Of a stretch of 43,393 nucleotides of DNA, positions 24,043 to 35,782 are shown one piece after another. Below the pieces are notes generated by a model that was not told the DNA's origin, did no database searches, and worked only from the letters and a program-made list of their open reading frames with translations. The stretch spans positions 1 to 43,393 of the forward strand of contig CAJOFY010000026.1 of assembly GCA_905233945.1 (NCBI GenBank), written 5' to 3'. This DNA comes from an uncultured bacterium (GTDB lineage: Bacteria; UBP6; UBA1177). The number at the start of each line of letters is the position of its first letter. Positions within the stretch are counted from its first letter, which is position 1. The translations under genes were made by a program, and so were the position numbers.

Positions 24043-27000
24043 CTATTCGCTGATTACGATTTCCTGTGAAAGATCGTTGTAGTTTTCTTCAGGATTGTAG
24101 TAGGGGTGAACTGACGATTCTCCGGTAGCGCCTTTGATCGGATAGTCGGCAAGAAGCTCGAACTGGTAGGTCTGTGTCGTGCCGGCATCGATGTGATCGA
24201 GATAGAGGATGATCTGTCTCGGAGTTGTTTCGTACCTTCTGAGCTGAGTTCCTTGTTCTATAGACTCATCGAGCAGTGCCGGAATAAGTGTAAATCCCGG
24301 TGCGATTCCGATGCTTGCAAGAACCATGTTGACGTTTGCATCGCTGATGTTGCTGATTGAAACGGTCGCTTTGACTGTGTCGTTTACAGACAAACTGGTT
24401 TTGTCGTAGGTCACGTCAATTTTGAGCGGGCCGGCAGATGCTGCGTCGGAACCCGGAACATACCATGTCGCGGTCGCCTGATACAGCATCGATGTGTCGG
24501 AATCGGTTTTTATTTCTATGGTGTTTTCTCCGTATACAAGATGCTCTTTGAAATCAATGAGGCGCAGAACGTCTGAATCGTCAGGCGTTATCTTGATTTC
24601 TACTTCTGGTGAGCCGTTTGCCGAAATTTTCAGTGTGGCGTTTATATCCTGAGACTGCGAGCCGTAGAGCATTTCGATCATGAATTTGAGTGCGCGGATT
24701 GTTCCCTGCGTTGTGGACCAGTTTCCGAAAGAGTCCTTTTGTCTTATAATCCAGTCTAAAATACCCTGCGTGACTGCGAAATAACCGCCTTTGGAGACGA
24801 GAAGCGAACCTATAAGCGCTGTCGTTTCGAGCGTTGCGTTTTCACCTGTGGAGTACGTTTCGGTGCTTTCACTTTGTTTCCAGTAGATTCCGCCTTTTTC
24901 ATCCTCTGTTTTCGCCTCAAGTATTTCCTGAATGAGAGTGTTGAGAGCTGTCGAATTTACGTCGTTTTTAAGAAGCGCAATGGCGACTATCGCTTTTGAA
25001 TAGGTATCGGTTGCCTCCGAAATATGCGATTCAAGGTATTGAACTGCTTTCTGCCGTGCCTGAGTTTCAGTTCCGGTCTCGGCGAAAGCCAATGCGACGT
25101 AAGCCGTTGTTCTGAGAACCGAAGATGTGAAATTGTTGATTGCGCCGTCCATGTATCCGTATTCGGTGACAAAAGAACCGTCAGATTTCTGCTGGGTTGC
25201 CGCCCAAGCCGCAGTTCTCGGGATAAGTGTCGGGTCAATTGTGTGGACTTTGCTCATGTCGTTAAACTCAAGAAGGCCGTAAGCTGTAAGCGTAAGGTGG
25301 GCAGGCGTGCCGCCGAACCATTCAAAGCCGCCACCCTGCACTTCGTAGGTGAGCAGTCTCTGGTAGCCCTGAGTTATGTAATCCCTTGCTTTAAGTTCGA
25401 TTTCGGGCGTCAGCGTACCTGTTGAAATCATATATTGCAGCACAAGAACATTCGGATAGGTTGACGACGAGGTCTGTTCGAAGCAGCCGGTCGGCATCTG
25501 CAGCATCGAATCAAGCCCTTCGACAGCCTGACTCATGATTCCTGGATAGATTTTTACGAAAAGTTCGGCACTGTCGGGGATCGCGTTTCCCGGGATCGTC
25601 AGTTTTACGGTTTTATTGCCGTCGAAAATCGAGCTTTCCGACTTGTCCTCCATGATTCCGTCCGGTTTGACGGTTACGCTGCGTTTGATTGCGTCGGACA
25701 TCTGCGAGCCGTGAGCGAAAATCGTCATGCTGTGTTCGCCGATTTTCAACACTTTTATCGGGAAGTATGCCGGTGTTACCGAATTTGCCGGAACGGTTAC
25801 GTTTATTGCTGATGTTCCCGTCATTTCAAACCAGTCGGCGCTTTCTGCTTCTAAAGTTATGTTCTGCTCGACGTTCAGATAATTGTAAATACCGACAGGA
25901 ACGGAAACTTCGTCGTTCTGCGTCAGATAGACAGGAAAATCTATGTCAATGAAGAAATCCTGAAAAACCCTTATAGCATCAAGCGAACTTCCGATTGCAC
26001 CGTCAATGCTGTTTGCGAGAGCCGTGACGCGCCATGATGTTATCGAATCAGCCATCTGAACTTCGATTTCGGCATTTCCGTTTTCGTCAGTGATAAGCTG
26101 CGGATTGTAGTAGAGGGTTTCGGGAAACCATTCCCTGACTTTCACATTTTTGCCGGTGTTGCCCGTGCCGTCTCCGTAGTCTCCGCCGTCAGAACCTGCT
26201 TCAGCAGTATCGCCTTCATCCCATCCTGCTTCGGCATCTGCCCCCTCATCCCAGTAATCATACTCGTCCTCGCACAGTGTCACGCTTGTTCTGATGTCGT
26301 CTTCGGTTTCAGCTGTTTCATCAGGACCTGCCGAAGTGATTTGGACAACGGTGCTCCAATCCTGCTGAATCTCAGCTTTCATTATGTTGCCCCACGGGTC
26401 GGTATTTTCCGGGTCAGCAAAAATCATTTCAACTTTTTCTTTAACTTTGTCGATTTTTTCGCAATTGTCCCAGTCTATGCCGTCAAGTATTTCTGACGCT
26501 CTTTTCTTGACTGCGGTTTTTGCAGCCGAAAGGTACTGTGATTCATACTGCGAATAGTCTTCCTGCGCGATATCGTGCTGAAGATTCCCTGCATTGTCAG
26601 CAAAAAACGCGCTTGCTCTTTTTTCGGTTTCCTCTTCCTTTTCTTCATCTTCGGAATATGAAACTATATCCTGATAGGTGGTTCCGTAAATTGCGAAACT
26701 TGATTCCATAACCGCGTTTTCGATGCTGAAATAGGTTGCTTCCATTCCGGGAACAAAATCCATGACATGGAAAACAGCTTCGTCAACCATTGCAACACCG
26801 ATAGCAGCGGCTGCCGGTTCGCCCATTGCATCCTTCACCTTAAAACGCGCTTTTGCCGTTTCCCTCGGCTTGTATTCCTCTTTATCGGTCGAAAATTCGA
26901 CTGAAAGCGAGCTTTCCTTTCTTACGTAAACCGCCTTTGAGGAACGGATGATGTTGCCGTCTTTTGTGAGATAGTATGCGAGAAACTCGACAACTCCGTG

Positions 27001-28941
27001 CATTGTTTCATCAAGCGGAAGCGAGATTTTGCCTTTTCCTTCGTTAAGCTCGACCACTTTGGTAAGCCTTATCTGGTCATCTACTACGACATCAAGATAA
27101 ACTCTGTCTGGAAGCATCGAAGGCTGCGGCATATTCGGGTCAAAGCCTGTAAAAACGCTGACTTCGGCATCTTCTCCGGCATAGTAGATCGAAGCGTCGG
27201 TGGAAAGGAAGACGAATTCGTTGTTTTTATCGCTGTTGAAGTGAACGACACTTTTATAAGTTTTGCCTTTGTATATGACTTCGACAGTTGCGACACCGTC
27301 CTGATACAGCATGGTCTTAAATTCTGCAAAGCCGTTTTCCCCGACACTGTGCGTTGTCGATTCGCCAACGATTATCACATCTGCAGAAACGGGATTGCCG
27401 TTAGGATCTGTAAGGATGAGATAGACATCCTGCTCGGTTCCCGGAAGTACTTTGCCGGCAGCGGGAACGAGAGTGACAATGACCGGAGCCTGGGCGACAG
27501 TCAGATATTTTACAATCGACTGCGCATGATCTGCTGTGTCTGTGACGGTGATTTCAAGTTTAGCCTTCGCTTTTCCCTGCTCGAGTTCGCTTCCTGCAAA
27601 ATAGTTGGGAAGTTTGAGGGTAAAAGTGTATTCCCCGTTTTGAGAGAGGACTGCATCTATTGTCTGGAAAGTCGTTTCCGAGACATCGGATGTCTTTGCT
27701 TCAATGTGAACCGCGCCGTTCACAGGTTTTCCGTAAAAATAGTTGGAAACAATCTTTCCTTTCACTATTTCGCCCGGCATATAGAAGCCTTTGTCGGCTG
27801 AAAATTCGATTCCAAACTTAGGAAGGACATACTTTTCAACAGTCAGTGTTTTCTGCGCGGCAGTTTCGCCGTTAATCAGCACAGAAACCTGATAGTTTCC
27901 CAGATTGACGAGGTTTGCAAGTTTGAAATCTGCCGAAAATATGCCGTATTTGCTGGTTTTGCCGGTCGTTTTGAATACTTTGTTGCCTTTCGGATCGGTG
28001 ATTTCCAATGTTACATCAACTTCCGAAAGGGGTTTTTTATCTGAAAGAGCAAGTGAAAGCGAACGGATGTGTATAGTTTGTCCCGGCTGGTAGAGAGGTT
28101 TGTCTGTTGTAAGGAGGGTTTTATTGAAATCTTCAGTCTGCGGAACCAGATCGGCTGAAAGAGTACGCTTTCCGTAAGCGGTTTCTGCGGTTATGACCAT
28201 TTTTACGACTCCTCTTACGGATTCGTCAAGAGAAACCGGGATTTCTGCCATGCCGCCTTTGTCGGTTTTTGTCGATATTTTGCCGACAGTTTCGCCGTTA
28301 CTGATAAATTCGACTTCTATATCTTTTTCCATCAGCGGTGAACCGCCTGCTATCGGATTGCCGGTAAGAGCATCGCTTACGAAAACTCTGAATACTGAAG
28401 TTTCGCCGCCTGTAATCTGCCTGTTTCCAATCATGAAAGTTCTCATCTTAGGCGATATGCGGAACATTGAAACTTTGCCGCCGAGATTGAATTTGTCCCA
28501 TTTTATCGAGTATTTAAGCACAAGATTTGTCAGTTCTTCAATATCTGGCAGATAGTCTTTTCCAAGTTCGATTTCAAGGTTTTCGGTTTTGTCGGTGATG
28601 CTTTCCGTCTGTCTGCGGTCAAGTCCCTCTTCAGAAGTTCCGTCAAGTTTTTCTGCGCTGACAGAGACTTCTGCGTCTATTGCGGCGGTATCCTTTTCGA
28701 GAGCTACAGGAATATTGAGGAAAAATTTCCCTGATTTGAAAAAAATGAAAATCTGGCTCTCGTTGACTTCCAGATTCTCCACTTTGATAATGCGGTCGCC
28801 TTCATCCTCAAAAGGATTCGTGATTCCGCCTTCCAAACCATCTGTAGGATTAAACGGATTCTTCTGCGAAGTAGAATTGCTGCACGAACATGCAAAGGCT
28901 GCGGCAAACATGACGGCAAGCGCCAGAAACCTGATTTTCAT
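24043..28941 (-). CDS. Bacterial alpha-2-macroglobulin lipoprotein
   Basis: 1632 residues from ATG 28941, which has AGGAGGAG upstream on this strand; a longer reading from 28992 lacks support. The signal sequence ends in AFACSC, so it is probably a lipoprotein facing the periplasm. MG domains include TDKPLYQPGQTIHIRSLSL. An acidic, Lys/Arg-containing bait-like region lies about residues 745-830, the ANA-type domain reads ADSITSWRVTALANS, and the thioester motif GCFEQ has Cys at about residue 1153, within an alpha/alpha toroid. These proteins trap proteases covalently to protect the cell. GCFEQ is a variation of the usual GCGEQ. The common partner PBP1C is absent; a secreted protease lies divergently nearby. 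Confidence 0.95.
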   Translation of the reverse strand: MKIRFLALAVMFAAAFACSCSNSTSQKNPFNPTDGLEGGITNPFEDEGDRIIKVENLEVNESQIFIFFKSGKFFLNIPVALEKDTAAIDAEVSVSAEKLDGTSEEGLDRRQTESITDKTENLEIELGKDYLPDIEELTNLVLKYSIKWDKFNLGGKVSMFRISPKMRTFMIGNRQITGGETSVFRVFVSDALTGNPIAGGSPLMEKDIEVEFISNGETVGKISTKTDKGGMAEIPVSLDESVRGVVKMVITAETAYGKRTLSADLVPQTEDFNKTLLTTDKPLYQPGQTIHIRSLSLALSDKKPLSEVDVTLEITDPKGNKVFKTTGKTSKYGIFSADFKLANLVNLGNYQVSVLINGETAAQKTLTVEKYVLPKFGIEFSADKGFYMPGEIVKGKIVSNYFYGKPVNGAVHIEAKTSDVSETTFQTIDAVLSQNGEYTFTLKLPNYFAGSELEQGKAKAKLEITVTDTADHAQSIVKYLTVAQAPVIVTLVPAAGKVLPGTEQDVYLILTDPNGNPVSADVIIVGESTTHSVGENGFAEFKTMLYQDGVATVEVIYKGKTYKSVVHFNSDKNNEFVFLSTDASIYYAGEDAEVSVFTGFDPNMPQPSMLPDRVYLDVVVDDQIRLTKVVELNEGKGKISLPLDETMHGVVEFLAYYLTKDGNIIRSSKAVYVRKESSLSVEFSTDKEEYKPRETAKARFKVKDAMGEPAAAAIGVAMVDEAVFHVMDFVPGMEATYFSIENAVMESSFAIYGTTYQDIVSYSEDEEKEEETEKRASAFFADNAGNLQHDIAQEDYSQYESQYLSAAKTAVKKRASEILDGIDWDNCEKIDKVKEKVEMIFADPENTDPWGNIMKAEIQQDWSTVVQITSAGPDETAETEDDIRTSVTLCEDEYDYWDEGADAEAGWDEGDTAEAGSDGGDYGDGTGNTGKNVKVREWFPETLYYNPQLITDENGNAEIEVQMADSITSWRVTALANSIDGAIGSSLDAIRVFQDFFIDIDFPVYLTQNDEVSVPVGIYNYLNVEQNITLEAESADWFEMTGTSAINVTVPANSVTPAYFPIKVLKIGEHSMTIFAHGSQMSDAIKRSVTVKPDGIMEDKSESSIFDGNKTVKLTIPGNAIPDSAELFVKIYPGIMSQAVEGLDSMLQMPTGCFEQTSSSTYPNVLVLQYMISTGTLTPEIELKARDYITQGYQRLLTYEVQGGGFEWFGGTPAHLTLTAYGLLEFNDMSKVHTIDPTLIPRTAAWAATQQKSDGSFVTEYGYMDGAINNFTSSVLRTTAYVALAFAETGTETQARQKAVQYLESHISEATDTYSKAIVAIALLKNDVNSTALNTLIQEILEAKTEDEKGGIYWKQSESTETYSTGENATLETTALIGSLLVSKGGYFAVTQGILDWIIRQKDSFGNWSTTQGTIRALKFMIEMLYGSQSQDINATLKISANGSPEVEIKITPDDSDVLRLIDFKEHLVYGENTIEIKTDSDTSMLYQATATWYVPGSDAASAGPLKIDVTYDKTSLSVNDTVKATVSISNISDANVNMVLASIGIAPGFTLIPALLDESIEQGTQLRRYETTPRQIILYLDHIDAGTTQTYQFELLADYPIKGATGESSVHPYYNPEENYNDLSQEIVISE

Positions 28942-29108
28942 GGAAAACTCCTCCTGTAAAAGACGATAAAAACTCAAAAAACAAACAGACACTATTTAGT
29001 AACACAAAGTTCCGATTTTTCTGATAAAAAAATGAAAAAAAGTGAAAAAAAATGATTTTTTTGCAGGGCAGAAAAGAGTTCCGGCAGAAATAGAGTGAAA
29101 CAGATTTT

Positions 29109-29219: not shown

Positions 29220-30770
29220 ATGCAAAAATTTTTGAATTTACTAGCTGTTTTATCAGTTTTGATGTTCGTTTCCTGTTCCTCCTCAAAGTCAGAGAACGAC
29301 TCGGACACAGCGCCAGATTCCGGCATTGCCCCGCAGGATGTTGAGACTGTTGATGATGATTCTGGCTGTCAAGATTTGGATTTTATTGATGATTCTGGTG
29401 AGACGACGAATGCCGATGTAGATGCAGACAACGATTCAGACACACCAGAAACAGTTGAATGTCTCGATCTGCGCTACAACGAAAACACTATCAAAACACC
29501 TTTTCCGTTCAAGGATGCATATGGCAGCCCCACTTTCTGTCGTCCGGGCTGCGACATCCCGACTGAAAATGACCCGCAGTGTATTCGTAACATCTGGGAC
29601 TGGGACAACTGGGACGAGTATCAGGTTTACCTCAAAGCTCAGGAAAAAGATCCGAATCAGCAGAAAGAACGCGAATGTTACCCATGGCCGTGCACGCTGC
29701 CGGATATGCACGCCGATTCTACGCTTGAAACCTTCTCTAGTAAATGTGACAGGTGGTTGACTGTGAATGATTTCAAAGCAAATTCGGGAATAGTCAACAC
29801 ACACGGAATGTTTGATGGTGTCGCAGGAATGGATTTTTCTCACACTGGCAGAATCGTAGAATATGATCCTGAAAAAGATGAATATACAACGGTCGGTCAA
29901 AATAAAACAATGCTGGCTTTTAACGAAAACCGTTATGTTACGCTTATCCATGATTCAGATCCGCCGAACAATGCAAAATTTAAATCGTTTGTAATTTCTG
30001 TTTTTCGCAAAGATGGTAAATATTATTACGAATTTATTTATGACAACAAGAACCATAATTCTTTTTTTTCAAGGCCTGCGCTTGCCAGCAAGAACTGGGT
30101 TTTGATTCATGTAAAAGAAGGGGACAGTAGTTCAGTTACGGAGATAAAATACGCCTCATCCAAAGACTGGGAATGGCACAACCTTGCCGGAATCAACAAC
30201 TATGCTGGGGAAGGCAACATAGTTGGAGACCACCTGACTTTCATCACGAACAACAGGGAGCTTTACTATTGCGATTTAAGGAAATATCCTAAGCACATTG
30301 ATGAATGTTTTAAACTTAACCGTAAGAATGAATCCGGCAATGAAGAGCTTGGACACAGCCCAAGGATAGATTTGGATGATGAATACCGTGTTGTTTACAA
30401 TGTCTATGGAACACCTACATTTGTCGAAGTCGATCTAAAGGACTTGAAAGATCCGAAATATACAGAGTATGCAATAGAAAAAAAACATGAAAACTCCGTT
30501 GATTGGGAAATTGATATGCTGAAAGGCAACAGGATTTCTTACTCGGAAATGATTGAAACACCTGACTGGTTTGGTTGTTTCTATCGTTTTGACAAAGAAA
30601 AGACTTATTGTCCTTCTAATTTTACCTTTTCTGGAGGTAGAGATTTGATGGGTTATAATGTTTTTTGGGGGAAGTGGCATCTCTGGAAAGTAATAAATAG
30701 CATAGTGGCAATCATGCGTGACTGGGAATGTTACTGTCAGGAAACGGGTGTTTGCCCGTTGGAACAATAA
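29220..30770 (+). CDS. Asp-rich surface lipoprotein, unknown function
   Basis: 516 residues with AGAGG seven bases before the ATG. A lipoprotein signal (LLAVLSVLMFVSCSS) is followed by about 75 residues of Asp/Ser/Glu-rich disordered linker. A Cys- and Trp-rich domain comes next (GCDIPTENDPQC, WDWDNWDEYQVY, ERECYPWPC), then a repetitive beta-strand region (EFIYDNKNHNSFF, LTFITNNRELYYCDL, YRVVYNVYGTPTFVEVDL) that may be a beta-propeller, and a closing Cys-x-Cys motif (WECYCQETGVC). No catalytic motif is recognised. The protease gene starts 17 bases after its stop, so the two are probably one transcript. Base composition is more AT-rich than the flanking genes. Confidence 0.75.
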   Translation: MQKFLNLLAVLSVLMFVSCSSSKSENDSDTAPDSGIAPQDVETVDDDSGCQDLDFIDDSGETTNADVDADNDSDTPETVECLDLRYNENTIKTPFPFKDAYGSPTFCRPGCDIPTENDPQCIRNIWDWDNWDEYQVYLKAQEKDPNQQKERECYPWPCTLPDMHADSTLETFSSKCDRWLTVNDFKANSGIVNTHGMFDGVAGMDFSHTGRIVEYDPEKDEYTTVGQNKTMLAFNENRYVTLIHDSDPPNNAKFKSFVISVFRKDGKYYYEFIYDNKNHNSFFSRPALASKNWVLIHVKEGDSSSVTEIKYASSKDWEWHNLAGINNYAGEGNIVGDHLTFITNNRELYYCDLRKYPKHIDECFKLNRKNESGNEELGHSPRIDLDDEYRVVYNVYGTPTFVEVDLKDLKDPKYTEYAIEKKHENSVDWEIDMLKGNRISYSEMIETPDWFGCFYRFDKEKTYCPSNFTFSGGRDLMGYNVFWGKWHLWKVINSIVAIMRDWECYCQETGVCPLEQ

Positions 30771-30787: not shown

Positions 30788-33700
30788 ATGAAAAAAAATC
30801 TATTCTTTATTTTTATATATGTGTTTTCTTTTTTAATTTATGCAGACACTTGTGTTGCAGGGAGAAATTCATGCAATAACAAAGAAGTCTGTATTTCTGC
30901 CGAAATCATGGGAAAAATCAAAGAACAAAGTAGAAATTTAAAAAAAGTAAGTGTGCCGGATTTATCACAAAAACCAGAGTTGCAAAGAGTCTTTCCGTTT
31001 AAATTGAAAGTAGGAAGCAGTCAGGATGAACTTCAGGATTATAATGTTTATTCTTTGACCGATTATAAGAGTTTGGACGGCGAGAAATATGACATTGTTT
31101 CGAGCATAAAAAGCCAAGGCTCATTTGGAGATTGTACAAGATTTGCAGCTCTTGGAGTATTGGAAATAAAACTCGTGAAAAAATATCCACGACTTTTTCA
31201 GATAGCAAAAAGGCGTACAGAATTAAATGGAGGTGATCCTGGAATAGTTGAAGCCAATCTTTCAGAGGCTTATGCAAAAGAAATAGCAGGATGTCAAAAC
31301 AACCCAATCTCAGTTATGGAAAAGCTTGTTGAGAGAGGTGTTGTTCAAGAAGAACATTATCCATATCGTGATAGATATTTTGGAGATCGCGAATATGTTT
31401 CCAAACGTAATTACAACCGTTATGGATTATTTGAAAATACTAAATGCGAAGATGATGAGGATTTCTATAATTCATATTTATTAGATAAATCGTTGGATTA
31501 TTTCTGGCTTACTGTTTTGCCGGAGAGCGCGGAAACTGTTGAAGGCGAAAATGAAAATACAAAGATTTCAGCAGTTAAAGCCCTGATTAAATCAGGTGAA
31601 CCAGTGATTTTATCCTACCCATATTCATGTACTGAAAAAAAAGAGAAAGAAAATATATCTCATATGGGAAAATTTTCCGGTTTTCAATTTTGGGATACAG
31701 TTAATAATGACGGTAAAGATAAGACAGGACATGCTGTTATTATTGTCGGATACATGGAACCTGATGATGCAAAAAATCCAGAATACTTTATTATAAAGAA
31801 CTCACATGGCGATGATAATATTCTTGATTTATTTCCAATAGACAATTATTTCAAAGAAAAGTGTAAGCCGACATACAATGTTTTTGGTGAAATCTCTGTT
31901 TGTAGAGGAGGCAAATACAATTGTTGGGATGAAGACGCTTTGGGAATGATGGATGAAGACAATGATAAAATTCCGGACATTTTTGACAACAGTGTTCATT
32001 CTGCGACTTATGCTTTTTCTGATTTTTCAAGTGTTTCCTTTAATCCGGCACAGTTTGATGCAGATCACGATGGAATTTCTATGGAAAAAGACCTTTGTTC
32101 TTATATCCCTGACATTGCAAGAGCAGATATGGACATGGACGGTATCGGCGATTATTGCGACGATGACATAGACGGAGACGGAATATTAAATATTGATGAA
32201 GGACTGAGAAACGTATATCTTTACCAGTCAGCGAATAACGGGAACAAATTAAATATAAATGAATATGCCGCGTTGAATCCGTTTATAGACGGAAGAACAG
32301 GAATTGTTCTCAACAAATATTTCATATCACGCGACTATGTTGACGGTAGGATATCCGAATTGCAATCGAAGGTGAATGAGAACTATATTTCTGATATTGA
32401 TTTTTATTTATTACCTTTCAGATATAATATAACATTTACTCCGATATTCCGATTCATCAAAAATGAAAACTATTTTCATAATTGGTACTTAAATTTAGGA
32501 ATTGCAGACAGTGCTGTGTGGGAAAGAGAGTTTAAGTATTCAGATGGGAGTACTGAGTTGCAGACAGGATACGGTTACAAATGGAATGTTCCCGGTTTAT
32601 TCGAGATGTCCAATATACCGTATCAAAAATATGCCTATGATAATTATGGTGAAAATTATCCTGAAAGTTTTTTTAACTGCATGTTGCACTGTAAAAAACT
32701 TGATGATTTTTATTCCGAAAAGAATTTTTTTAGTCAGAGAGACTGTCTGAAAGTGTGTGAAAATGCTTATAAATGCACAGTAGGGCAAGGAATAGACCGA
32801 GACTGTGACGGAATTAGGAATGAGTATGATAATTGTCCTGATGTTGATAATATCATTTCGAAAGATTCTGATAGAGACGGAGTTCCTGATGCCTGTGATA
32901 ACTGTCCTGATGTTCAAAATGCTTTTGAAACCTACAGACTTAACAACGAATTTATTTCAGGCAGTGAAGGTGCTATATCCCTGAAAGCAGGAGAACTTTT
33001 AATCGAACCTTTGATTCAGAATTATCATGCAATGTTTGATTTTCATTATAGAATGCAACCAGACAGTGATCTCGATGGGAAAGGCGATGCGTGCGATTTC
33101 AATAAAACAGGGGATGGTTTTGCAAACTCCAAAATTAAATCTGTGGCAACACCGCTGAAACATAATGGTTTGTTTACAGTCGAGATAAATCCTTCTATGC
33201 AAATTACGCTTGAAATGCATGAAAACAGCGGGCGTGGTTTGAATTTCTGCGATGAATTCGTCGTGCCTGGTATGCCCTTCTACAGAAGGACTGTATGTAG
33301 AGCAGTTGTACATTATTGTGCTATAAACTACGAGCAGATGGTAAATCAAAAACTATGGGGAACGGACGGTTACTGCTCAACTTCGGATAAAGCCGGCGGT
33401 TCGATTTTAGGTCAAAACTTCGGTTATAGCCACGGAAGCGACGATTTTTCGCCTCGTTCCATTGAAAGCTGGAAAAGCCGTATATCTGTTGCCGATTCAT
33501 CAATGTCTTCTAAAAATTCCGATTGGGAAAACAGTTTTACGATGATAAACAATCCCGGGTATGTTCCAAACGACGACCCGATAAGAATGCCTGTCGAACT
33601 CAATTCAAATGTAGATGTAACAACGGTATGGAACTGGCGGAGAGATTGGTATGAAAGAAACTTATGTTATAAAAATTCAAGCTCTTCATTTTGTCAAAAT

Positions 33701-35782
33701 CTTCTTACTGGCGGTGATTATGACGAAGCCAATACAATGTATGTTGCACTTTCTACAAGCATTGTGCCGGTAAAAGGCAGCAATCTGCAGCCCAAAGACA
33801 TTTTTCCTTATACGGAAGACAATGGAGAACTTTTTATTAATAGCAGCTATTTCCCACCGACAAACACAAATAAATTTGCCAGGGCATCAAGATACAACAT
33901 CGAACCGATTGCGTTGAACTACCACTCAGGCGAGATTTCTCTTCCGATTCCGAATCCAACCATATTGCCTGAAATCGACAAACTGCCGGACATCGAGTGG
34001 TGTTCATCGTGCTACTTTGACATGCCGATCCGCTATTTCGGGATAAACGAAATTCTGCCCTATGCTAATGAATATGTTTCCCGGTATCAGATAAAAAAAG
34101 ACAAAGAAAACCGTGTATTGCTGGATTCTCAGAGAATAATTTTTCCGAAGAATCAGATCGCTTTCAGCGAAATTTCTCCAGCTGAAATGATTGGAATAGA
34201 AAGTAACGGAAAAGAATTTTTTCTGACTTTGAACACTTCGGAAAGCGGTGCTGACTGGAACAAAATCGGCAGAATCGAAAACTGGGACTATGAAATCAAT
34301 GAGATTGAAAGCTGGTCCGCAAACTATTTTATTGCAAAGAATGCAAAAGGTGTAAAAAATCTGTATTCAATTGAATTGATTAGCGGAATTCCGCAGAATT
34401 TTGATGAAATCATAGAGGCGGGTGAACTTCCTGAAATGATTTATTCTGTAAACAATCTCGGTGAAGTTGGTTTCGACTATGAACAACCCAGACTTGTTTT
34501 TGCAAACAACAGACTTTATATGTTTGTCTCAAGCAAAACCGGATCGGAAATGCTTTCTTTTAATGGCGAAAATTTTGAACGGATTCAAGGTGTTATGCCT
34601 CCAGAGAGAAATATTTTGAATATAACTGTTTCCGGTAAATATCTGTTTTTGGCAGGCGGAACAGATTTTAATAATGAAAACATGAACGATTTATGGCGGT
34701 TTAATACCGAGATCAACGCCTGGGTGCAAGTTCCGATTACACTACAGGGCAATTTCGGTAAAGTAATAATACAGGAAGTTGATGGAAAAATCGTCGGTTT
34801 CAACCCTGTTATTGATGAAAACACAGCTTTCCCTGTTTTTGAGTTTGAAAACATGGAAGATACCGGGAATATTGAACTCTCATACTCGACAATAAAAATT
34901 GACGACCTTTATTTTGAGCAGAAATTCTGCATTTCCGAAACCGACAATTCAATTTTTCCCGGCATCACCAACTTTTACGGCGGATGCAAAAAAGTTGAGA
35001 ACTACGACTTCGAAGAAATCGCTTTCCCAGACTACAAACTGAGTGTTGCAGGTTATAAAAACAGCCTGTACCTCGGCGGGTTGACTGGAATACGCCGAGT
35101 TGAAATCGGTGAAAACGGCGAAATCACCAAGAAAGAGATGATTTACAGCGGAGAATCAAACAATCTTGCAGTTTCTGGCCGGAATCTTTATGCCGCGAAT
35201 TACAATGAAATTGACATTTTTGGAATCGCTGATGACGGCTCAATTGAAAGAAAATCATCATTAAAAACAAATAACTGCCGAAACATTAGAATTAACGGCA
35301 ACAAACTTTTTGCGGCTGAAAACAAGCGTGTTAGAATCTTTGATTTGAGTGATCCTAAGTCACCTGAACTTATTCAGACAATCAGTCTCAGCGGCAGTGC
35401 CGAAGACTTTGAAATCGCCGACAACATACTCTTTGTTTATGAAAACCTTAACGGACTTTTTATAAGAAAAGGAAAAATTTCAGTTTTTGACATTTCCGAC
35501 CTTGAAAATCCGCAAAAGGTCAAAGATTCCAGTCAGTACTGCAATGATCCTGAAATGCAGAAACGCTTCGACGATGCTCAGCGCCCCATAAACAGCGTTT
35601 ATCTCGGATGTAAAAACGGCACATTCAAAGTGACAGAAACCGGTTTGCAGAAAGTGAACGGCTCAAAGAATTATCTCCGCGAAGGCTATGTCTATGACGG
35701 AATCCTTTATCAGGTTTTCGGCGGAACACTGCACAAATCCAAGGTGGAATCCGAAGAAACTGAAGAAGACGGGTGGATCTGA
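30788..35782 (+). CDS. Secreted papain-like (C1) protease with calcium-repeat and beta-propeller-like regions
   Basis: 1664 residues from ATG 30788, chosen because it begins a signal peptide (KKNLFFIFIYVFSFLIYA); the frame from 30728 puts 20 residues ahead of it. The N-terminal domain has a complete papain triad: SQGSFGDC with Gln110 and Cys116, GHAVIIVGY with His315 and FIIKNSHGD with Asn338. Thrombospondin type-3-like calcium loops follow in two blocks (about 388-470 and 670-780, for example DMDMDGIGDYCDDDIDGDG, DSDRDGVPDACDNCPD). The last third has kelch-like and LVIVD-like repeats (about 1410-1600, ISVFDISDLENPQK). Likely a surface or secreted protease. The upstream lipoprotein may be its partner. 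Confidence 0.87.
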   Translation: MKKNLFFIFIYVFSFLIYADTCVAGRNSCNNKEVCISAEIMGKIKEQSRNLKKVSVPDLSQKPELQRVFPFKLKVGSSQDELQDYNVYSLTDYKSLDGEKYDIVSSIKSQGSFGDCTRFAALGVLEIKLVKKYPRLFQIAKRRTELNGGDPGIVEANLSEAYAKEIAGCQNNPISVMEKLVERGVVQEEHYPYRDRYFGDREYVSKRNYNRYGLFENTKCEDDEDFYNSYLLDKSLDYFWLTVLPESAETVEGENENTKISAVKALIKSGEPVILSYPYSCTEKKEKENISHMGKFSGFQFWDTVNNDGKDKTGHAVIIVGYMEPDDAKNPEYFIIKNSHGDDNILDLFPIDNYFKEKCKPTYNVFGEISVCRGGKYNCWDEDALGMMDEDNDKIPDIFDNSVHSATYAFSDFSSVSFNPAQFDADHDGISMEKDLCSYIPDIARADMDMDGIGDYCDDDIDGDGILNIDEGLRNVYLYQSANNGNKLNINEYAALNPFIDGRTGIVLNKYFISRDYVDGRISELQSKVNENYISDIDFYLLPFRYNITFTPIFRFIKNENYFHNWYLNLGIADSAVWEREFKYSDGSTELQTGYGYKWNVPGLFEMSNIPYQKYAYDNYGENYPESFFNCMLHCKKLDDFYSEKNFFSQRDCLKVCENAYKCTVGQGIDRDCDGIRNEYDNCPDVDNIISKDSDRDGVPDACDNCPDVQNAFETYRLNNEFISGSEGAISLKAGELLIEPLIQNYHAMFDFHYRMQPDSDLDGKGDACDFNKTGDGFANSKIKSVATPLKHNGLFTVEINPSMQITLEMHENSGRGLNFCDEFVVPGMPFYRRTVCRAVVHYCAINYEQMVNQKLWGTDGYCSTSDKAGGSILGQNFGYSHGSDDFSPRSIESWKSRISVADSSMSSKNSDWENSFTMINNPGYVPNDDPIRMPVELNSNVDVTTVWNWRRDWYERNLCYKNSSSSFCQNLLTGGDYDEANTMYVALSTSIVPVKGSNLQPKDIFPYTEDNGELFINSSYFPPTNTNKFARASRYNIEPIALNYHSGEISLPIPNPTILPEIDKLPDIEWCSSCYFDMPIRYFGINEILPYANEYVSRYQIKKDKENRVLLDSQRIIFPKNQIAFSEISPAEMIGIESNGKEFFLTLNTSESGADWNKIGRIENWDYEINEIESWSANYFIAKNAKGVKNLYSIELISGIPQNFDEIIEAGELPEMIYSVNNLGEVGFDYEQPRLVFANNRLYMFVSSKTGSEMLSFNGENFERIQGVMPPERNILNITVSGKYLFLAGGTDFNNENMNDLWRFNTEINAWVQVPITLQGNFGKVIIQEVDGKIVGFNPVIDENTAFPVFEFENMEDTGNIELSYSTIKIDDLYFEQKFCISETDNSIFPGITNFYGGCKKVENYDFEEIAFPDYKLSVAGYKNSLYLGGLTGIRRVEIGENGEITKKEMIYSGESNNLAVSGRNLYAANYNEIDIFGIADDGSIERKSSLKTNNCRNIRINGNKLFAAENKRVRIFDLSDPKSPELIQTISLSGSAEDFEIADNILFVYENLNGLFIRKGKISVFDISDLENPQKVKDSSQYCNDPEMQKRFDDAQRPINSVYLGCKNGTFKVTETGLQKVNGSKNYLREGYVYDGILYQVFGGTLHKSKVESEETEEDGWI

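Follow-up and report, generated by a model that had tools for sequence, protein, structure and literature searches.

We used sequence comparison and structure prediction to examine a 43,393-nucleotide stretch of DNA (the window) from an uncultured bacterium of candidate phylum UBP6, probably genus UBA1177, and conclude that its papain-headed protein P0001 is probably one unit in a modular platform for exported enzymes, displayed at the cell surface and carrying swappable heads. As read from these comparisons, the unit consists of two genes, one encoding a lipoprotein and the other a chassis protein, with unrelated heads exchanged at a thrombospondin type-3 (TSP3) hinge. What seems new is the platform itself, in which unrelated enzyme heads share a scaffold restricted to one lineage and accompanied by a lipoprotein that co-varies with it; the open literature that we searched yielded no description of it.

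A papain-type head on a long chassis

P0001 (1,664 amino acids) is encoded on the forward strand by an ORF with an ATG start at 30788 and a stop at 35782, and has a signal-like beginning (residues 1-19, 30788-30844, as read from the sequence). Its head (residues 90-345, 31055-31822) is predicted to be an ordinary papain relative with peptidase activity, on the evidence of Pfam, alignment, a PDB profile and a structural model. Peptidase_C1 (PF00112) covers residues 98-343 with 27.3 bits against a cut-off of 20.7 (E = 4.6e-6), so that the C1 placement on which an earlier note on this DNA had staked its reading of residues 90-345 was recovered. The note had also called the triad Cys116-His315-Asn338 with Gln110 complete; the numbering is exact, the residues follow papain order (oxyanion Gln, then catalytic Cys, His and Asn) and all four are invariant across eight head sequences from three divergent papain types. 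A profile built from the heads retrieved PDB entries for cathepsins H and L at ~1e-13, and the head as modelled by AlphaFold2 (mean pLDDT 69, weak at model residues 168-218) matched Der p 1 and cathepsins in Foldseek (E = 4.4e-6, probability 1.00), with modest TM scores of 0.36-0.59. The head thus shares with family C1 (papain, cathepsins L, H and K, Der p 1) a profile score above cut-off, the Gln-Cys-His-Asn order and a fold match, but it differs in its weak overall similarity, its large insertions, an NSHG where NSWG is usual, the lack of an Inhibitor_I29 propeptide match in Pfam and its position at the front of a 1,664-residue chassis protein.

Two TSP3 blocks follow the head, the first at residues 397-473 (31976-32206) and the second at residues 666-768 (32783-33091). 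TSP_3 (PF02412) matches four stretches of P0001 (E = 1.2e-10, 41.3 bits against a Pfam cut-off of 25), in agreement with the two blocks of loops described earlier, and calcium stiffening by these loops is plausible from their sequence. The TSP3 region of MtsC, a myxobacterial TSP3 cohesion protein (NF047638), matches residues 388-471, but the 71.1 bits obtained fall far below the equivalog cut-off of 350, and MtsC implies neither a protease nor propellers.

The chassis proper spans residues ~660-1664 and comprises the TSP3 hinge, a middle module of ~345 residues, two propellers and, at the C terminus, an (E/D)DGW tag. The middle module (type a, residues 753-1097, 33044-34078) belongs to no known family: it has no convincing match in Pfam, NCBIfam or the PDB, and as a PDB sequence query it retrieves weak antibody-type matches at most. 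It is followed by a kelch-like beta-propeller assigned from Pfam and the model (residues 1098-1366, 34079-34885) and by a second, LVIVD-like propeller, the type I tail, assigned from tail comparison and the model (residues 1367-1655, 34886-35752). Kelch_1 passes the Pfam cut-off at residues 1280-1316, LVIVD and Beta_propel matches lie under it, and a chassis model (pTM 0.39) structurally matches tandem-propeller proteins; the kelch/LVIVD-like repeats noticed at first reading are thereby borne out. The protein ends in an acidic EEDGWI tag (residues 1653-1664, 35744-35779). EDGW or DDGW before the stop is far more frequent than a reversed-pattern control, and the conserved end may serve in sorting or processing, a guess at its role that forms the weakest step of our scheme; C-terminal ends in other families of the order differ (DSGC, WSGC).

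Interchangeable heads, junctions and tails

The domain order that the earlier note found unfamiliar is more unusual than it had proposed, since papain is only one of the many heads that a chassis restricted to this lineage can carry. The search for the same architecture that it had suggested located full and partial copies of the chassis in relatives, where it carries unrelated heads. Among the 39 chassis ORFs that we read, the C-terminal part is common and the N-terminal heads vary, comprising three types of papain, gingipain-like C25, trypsin, reprolysin M12, M64 and others without a family. Papain type A is found in the window protein, L046, L047, L055 and L058, and type B in L050 and L054; the third papain-like head, in L094, lies below the Pfam cut-off with its four residues aligned. 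C25 heads occur in L072, L073 and L098, two of them with a C25 propeptide, and in L038 by virtue of 66% identity to L072; the C25 head alignment gave no match when searched against the PDB. Trypsin heads were assigned in L061 and L170, reprolysin M12 in L069 and M64 in L090, and HExxH motifs were read in the heads of L057, L063 and L067. A relative of the L057 head (L062:4751-7270) is without HExxH and is therefore possibly inactive. No family was assigned to the heads of the L039 and L044 groups, L060, L066, L099, L161 and L168. A conserved N-terminal head of ~750 residues in L039, L040, L064, L070 and L095 ('SLWGRIAN..FYPGTR..IWNGYGEGYVWVP') has no good match in Pfam or the PDB and is glycosidase-like by eye only.

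The position at which shared sequence begins points to the hinge. Homology between members with different heads starts a median of 82 residues before the middle module, compared with 834 for members with the same head; most alignments of the window protein with different-head members begin at residues 656-692, in or beside the second TSP3 block, which identifies TSP3 as the usual junction. Beyond it, middle modules are of type a or b and tails of type I or II, and a single head class is not bound to one pairing of these: C25 is joined to a+I in L038, to b+II in L072 and, with weaker scores, to b+I in L073; papain A to a+I in the window protein and L046, and to a+II in L047 and L055; and papain B to a+I in L054 and to b+II in L050. 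The similarity of heads does not correlate with that of middle modules (r = -0.03).

Tails are, to judge from DNA identities, partly homogenised within genomes. Seven type I tails of genome G013 are 86-94% identical in DNA and have exact runs of 60-128 bp in common, compared with 83-89% when each is set against its closest counterpart in a different genome, and the within-genome excess of tail identity over all copies has a permutation P of 0.013. A type I tail of G009 and G011 is 97% identical against 84% for queA, and a type II tail of G008 and G009 is 93% identical against 80% for queA, which suggests exchange between species; both gene conversion and horizontal exchange of tails are inferred from such identities. 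In the closest relative by queA (L155:7680-7750, G007:C44), a type I tail is represented behind a lipoprotein gene by just its final 23 codons, a piece that looks like a deletion remnant.

Many of the short copies in relatives are contig ends, which suggests that repeats have broken the assemblies. We considered short C-terminal pieces as silent donor cassettes and dropped the idea because most are contig ends; a few true remnants stay. Some chassis genes are broken by a frameshift or in-frame stop (L047:6613-6700, L049:828, L065:9318), which may reflect assembly error, decay or phase variation.

The adjoining lipoprotein

The regular neighbour of the chassis gene, at 29220-30770 on the forward strand in the window, encodes a 516-residue protein with a lipobox-like start, an acidic linker and no Pfam family. 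Its family is represented in every one of the order's 25 genomes and in none of three genomes from elsewhere in the phylum, and a simple pattern finds the lipobox-like start in 43 of 52 members. A lipoprotein gene adjoins 29 of the 39 chassis genes, upstream in most and downstream in others, and many of the lipoprotein genes overlap or nearly overlap the chassis gene. Among the ten exceptions, five have the contig breaking off at or close to their downstream side, two belong to a single locus (L098) in which a lipoprotein family member follows the split gene, and three have a type II tail but neither a middle module nor a clear lipoprotein neighbour.

In Mantel tests, run without phylogenetic correction, lipoprotein similarity followed that of the middle module (r = 0.80) and first propeller (r = 0.74), and less so the tail (r = 0.32; n = 21-23 from 23 pairs); within the genus (n = 13) the corresponding values were 0.86, 0.87 and 0.59. 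Correlation with the head was r = 0.00 (n = 23) and, within the genus, r = -0.08 (n = 13), on which grounds a head-specific inhibitor was rejected. The head usually sits between the lipoprotein gene and the middle module, so that in the upstream arrangement simple linkage would predict the opposite pattern. On this co-variation, lipoprotein class goes with the middle module and first propeller and not with the head, which argues for a scaffold partner. The pattern speaks for a functional connection of the lipoprotein with the scaffold, although joint descent of the two with no contact at all could also produce it.

The arrangement that we favour is one of docking. The chassis protein would cross the envelope, and its middle module or first propeller would dock on the matched outer-membrane lipoprotein; the TSP3 loops, filled with calcium, would act as a stiff spacer that keeps the head off the surface; and the exposed head would cut an extracellular substrate, here protein, as a papain-type cysteine protease. 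A change of head would then provide a strain-specific set of hydrolases with the anchor unchanged. We put forward more tentatively, as a possibility short of an even chance, that matched lipoprotein-chassis pairs of types a and b are docking ports of a new surface display or export class, with any head spliced at the TSP3 hinge and a C-terminal sorting tag of its own. If docking is real, such pairs would form a class-specific display system, and the head repertoire of a strain could be read from its sequence. Of the earlier reading as a whole, the exported papain-type protease with calcium-type TSP3 loops and propellers stands, and its use as an adhesive protease for prey or host contact found no support; the note had made no connection to the lipoprotein next door, which proves to be the regular partner.

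A secretion or folding helper of the chassis, in place of an anchor, would likewise fit both the co-variation with the scaffold and the overlapping or nearly overlapping genes; we think this unlikely, as the lipoprotein resembles no known secretion partner and has no Pfam match, and here sequence alone cannot separate helping from docking. Tight adjacency to a protease gene might instead indicate an immunity protein or inhibitor that shields the producer from its own enzyme, as in toxin-immunity pairs, but lipoprotein class stays constant when the head family changes and shifts when the middle module changes, and the lipoprotein also adjoins genes with non-papain heads, making this quite improbable. 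That the chassis proteins are polymorphic-toxin-like effectors of bacterial competition, with heads as toxic domains, is highly improbable: variable and constant modules, tail recombination and the tail remnant that follows a lipoprotein gene in the closest relative would suit it, but most heads that can be recognised belong to families of extracellular proteases (among them C25, complete with propeptide), no head-specific immunity gene was seen and the constant part lies at the C terminus, opposite to the usual layout of such toxins.

Two observations count against the platform as proposed: the three type II members noted above that have no clear lipoprotein neighbour, and the solitary copies of the lipoprotein, which are numerous in the genus (the window's genome has 11 matches and one chassis). 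The gene after each of four solitary ones (L275:5724-6737, L276:6545-7573, L281:6575-7615 and L283:7194-8135) has an ORF6N or Bro-N domain, recognised by Pfam at L275 and L281 and by resemblance at L276 and L283, and takes the position otherwise held by the chassis gene. The lipoprotein-protease pair of the window also adjoins an alpha-2-macroglobulin-like lipoprotein on the reverse strand (24043-28992) with a GCFEQ thioester motif. Alpha-2-macroglobulins are a family of broad protease inhibitors; in four relatives that we inspected, none was seen close to a chassis gene, and we rejected this neighbour as a conserved partner.

Known systems and distribution

Three known designs invite comparison. 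Cargo of the type IX secretion system (T9SS; Por_Secre_tail) resembles the chassis family in outline, with many unrelated exported enzymes sharing one constant C-terminal part, but the constant part of the chassis is ~1000 residues long and its gene adjoins that of a lipoprotein. The C-terminal sorting domain TIGR04183 has no match on P0001 and was not found in 15 genomes of the genus, and identity with T9SS cargo was rejected; TIGR04183 cargo domains are frequent in a genome of the same phylum without the chassis (G026). Cellulosomal enzymes join interchangeable catalytic parts to a constant docking part through dockerin and cohesin, an outline that the chassis family shares with its swappable catalytic parts and constant putative docking part. 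No dockerin appears among the Pfam matches of P0001 up to E = 1, and the proposed partner of what would be a docking interaction is a lipoprotein. Polymorphic toxins of the Rhs and CDI types also combine a constant part with swapped activity domains; in the chassis family the variable part is N-terminal and the neighbouring gene does not track it.

The platform is confined to one lineage in the genomes that we searched. The middle module turns up in 19 of the order's 25 genomes and in 0 of 361 others. The window comes from a genome of 2.65 Mb that is 99.7% complete. No relatives of the chassis family were found among viral contigs or PHROGs, and a phage origin was rejected. A pattern scan of assembled genome contigs returned 28 loci, 0 of them from genomes labelled outside UBP6. 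This uncultured lineage, several members of which come from ruminant guts, appears to build extracellular hydrolases by changing heads on one chassis. The related loci lie in metagenome-assembled genomes, one labelled UBP6_UBA1209 and further ones sampled from reindeer, yak, goat and water buffalo, and a rumen survey assigned all its UBP6 genomes to genus UBA1177 (PMC7820578).
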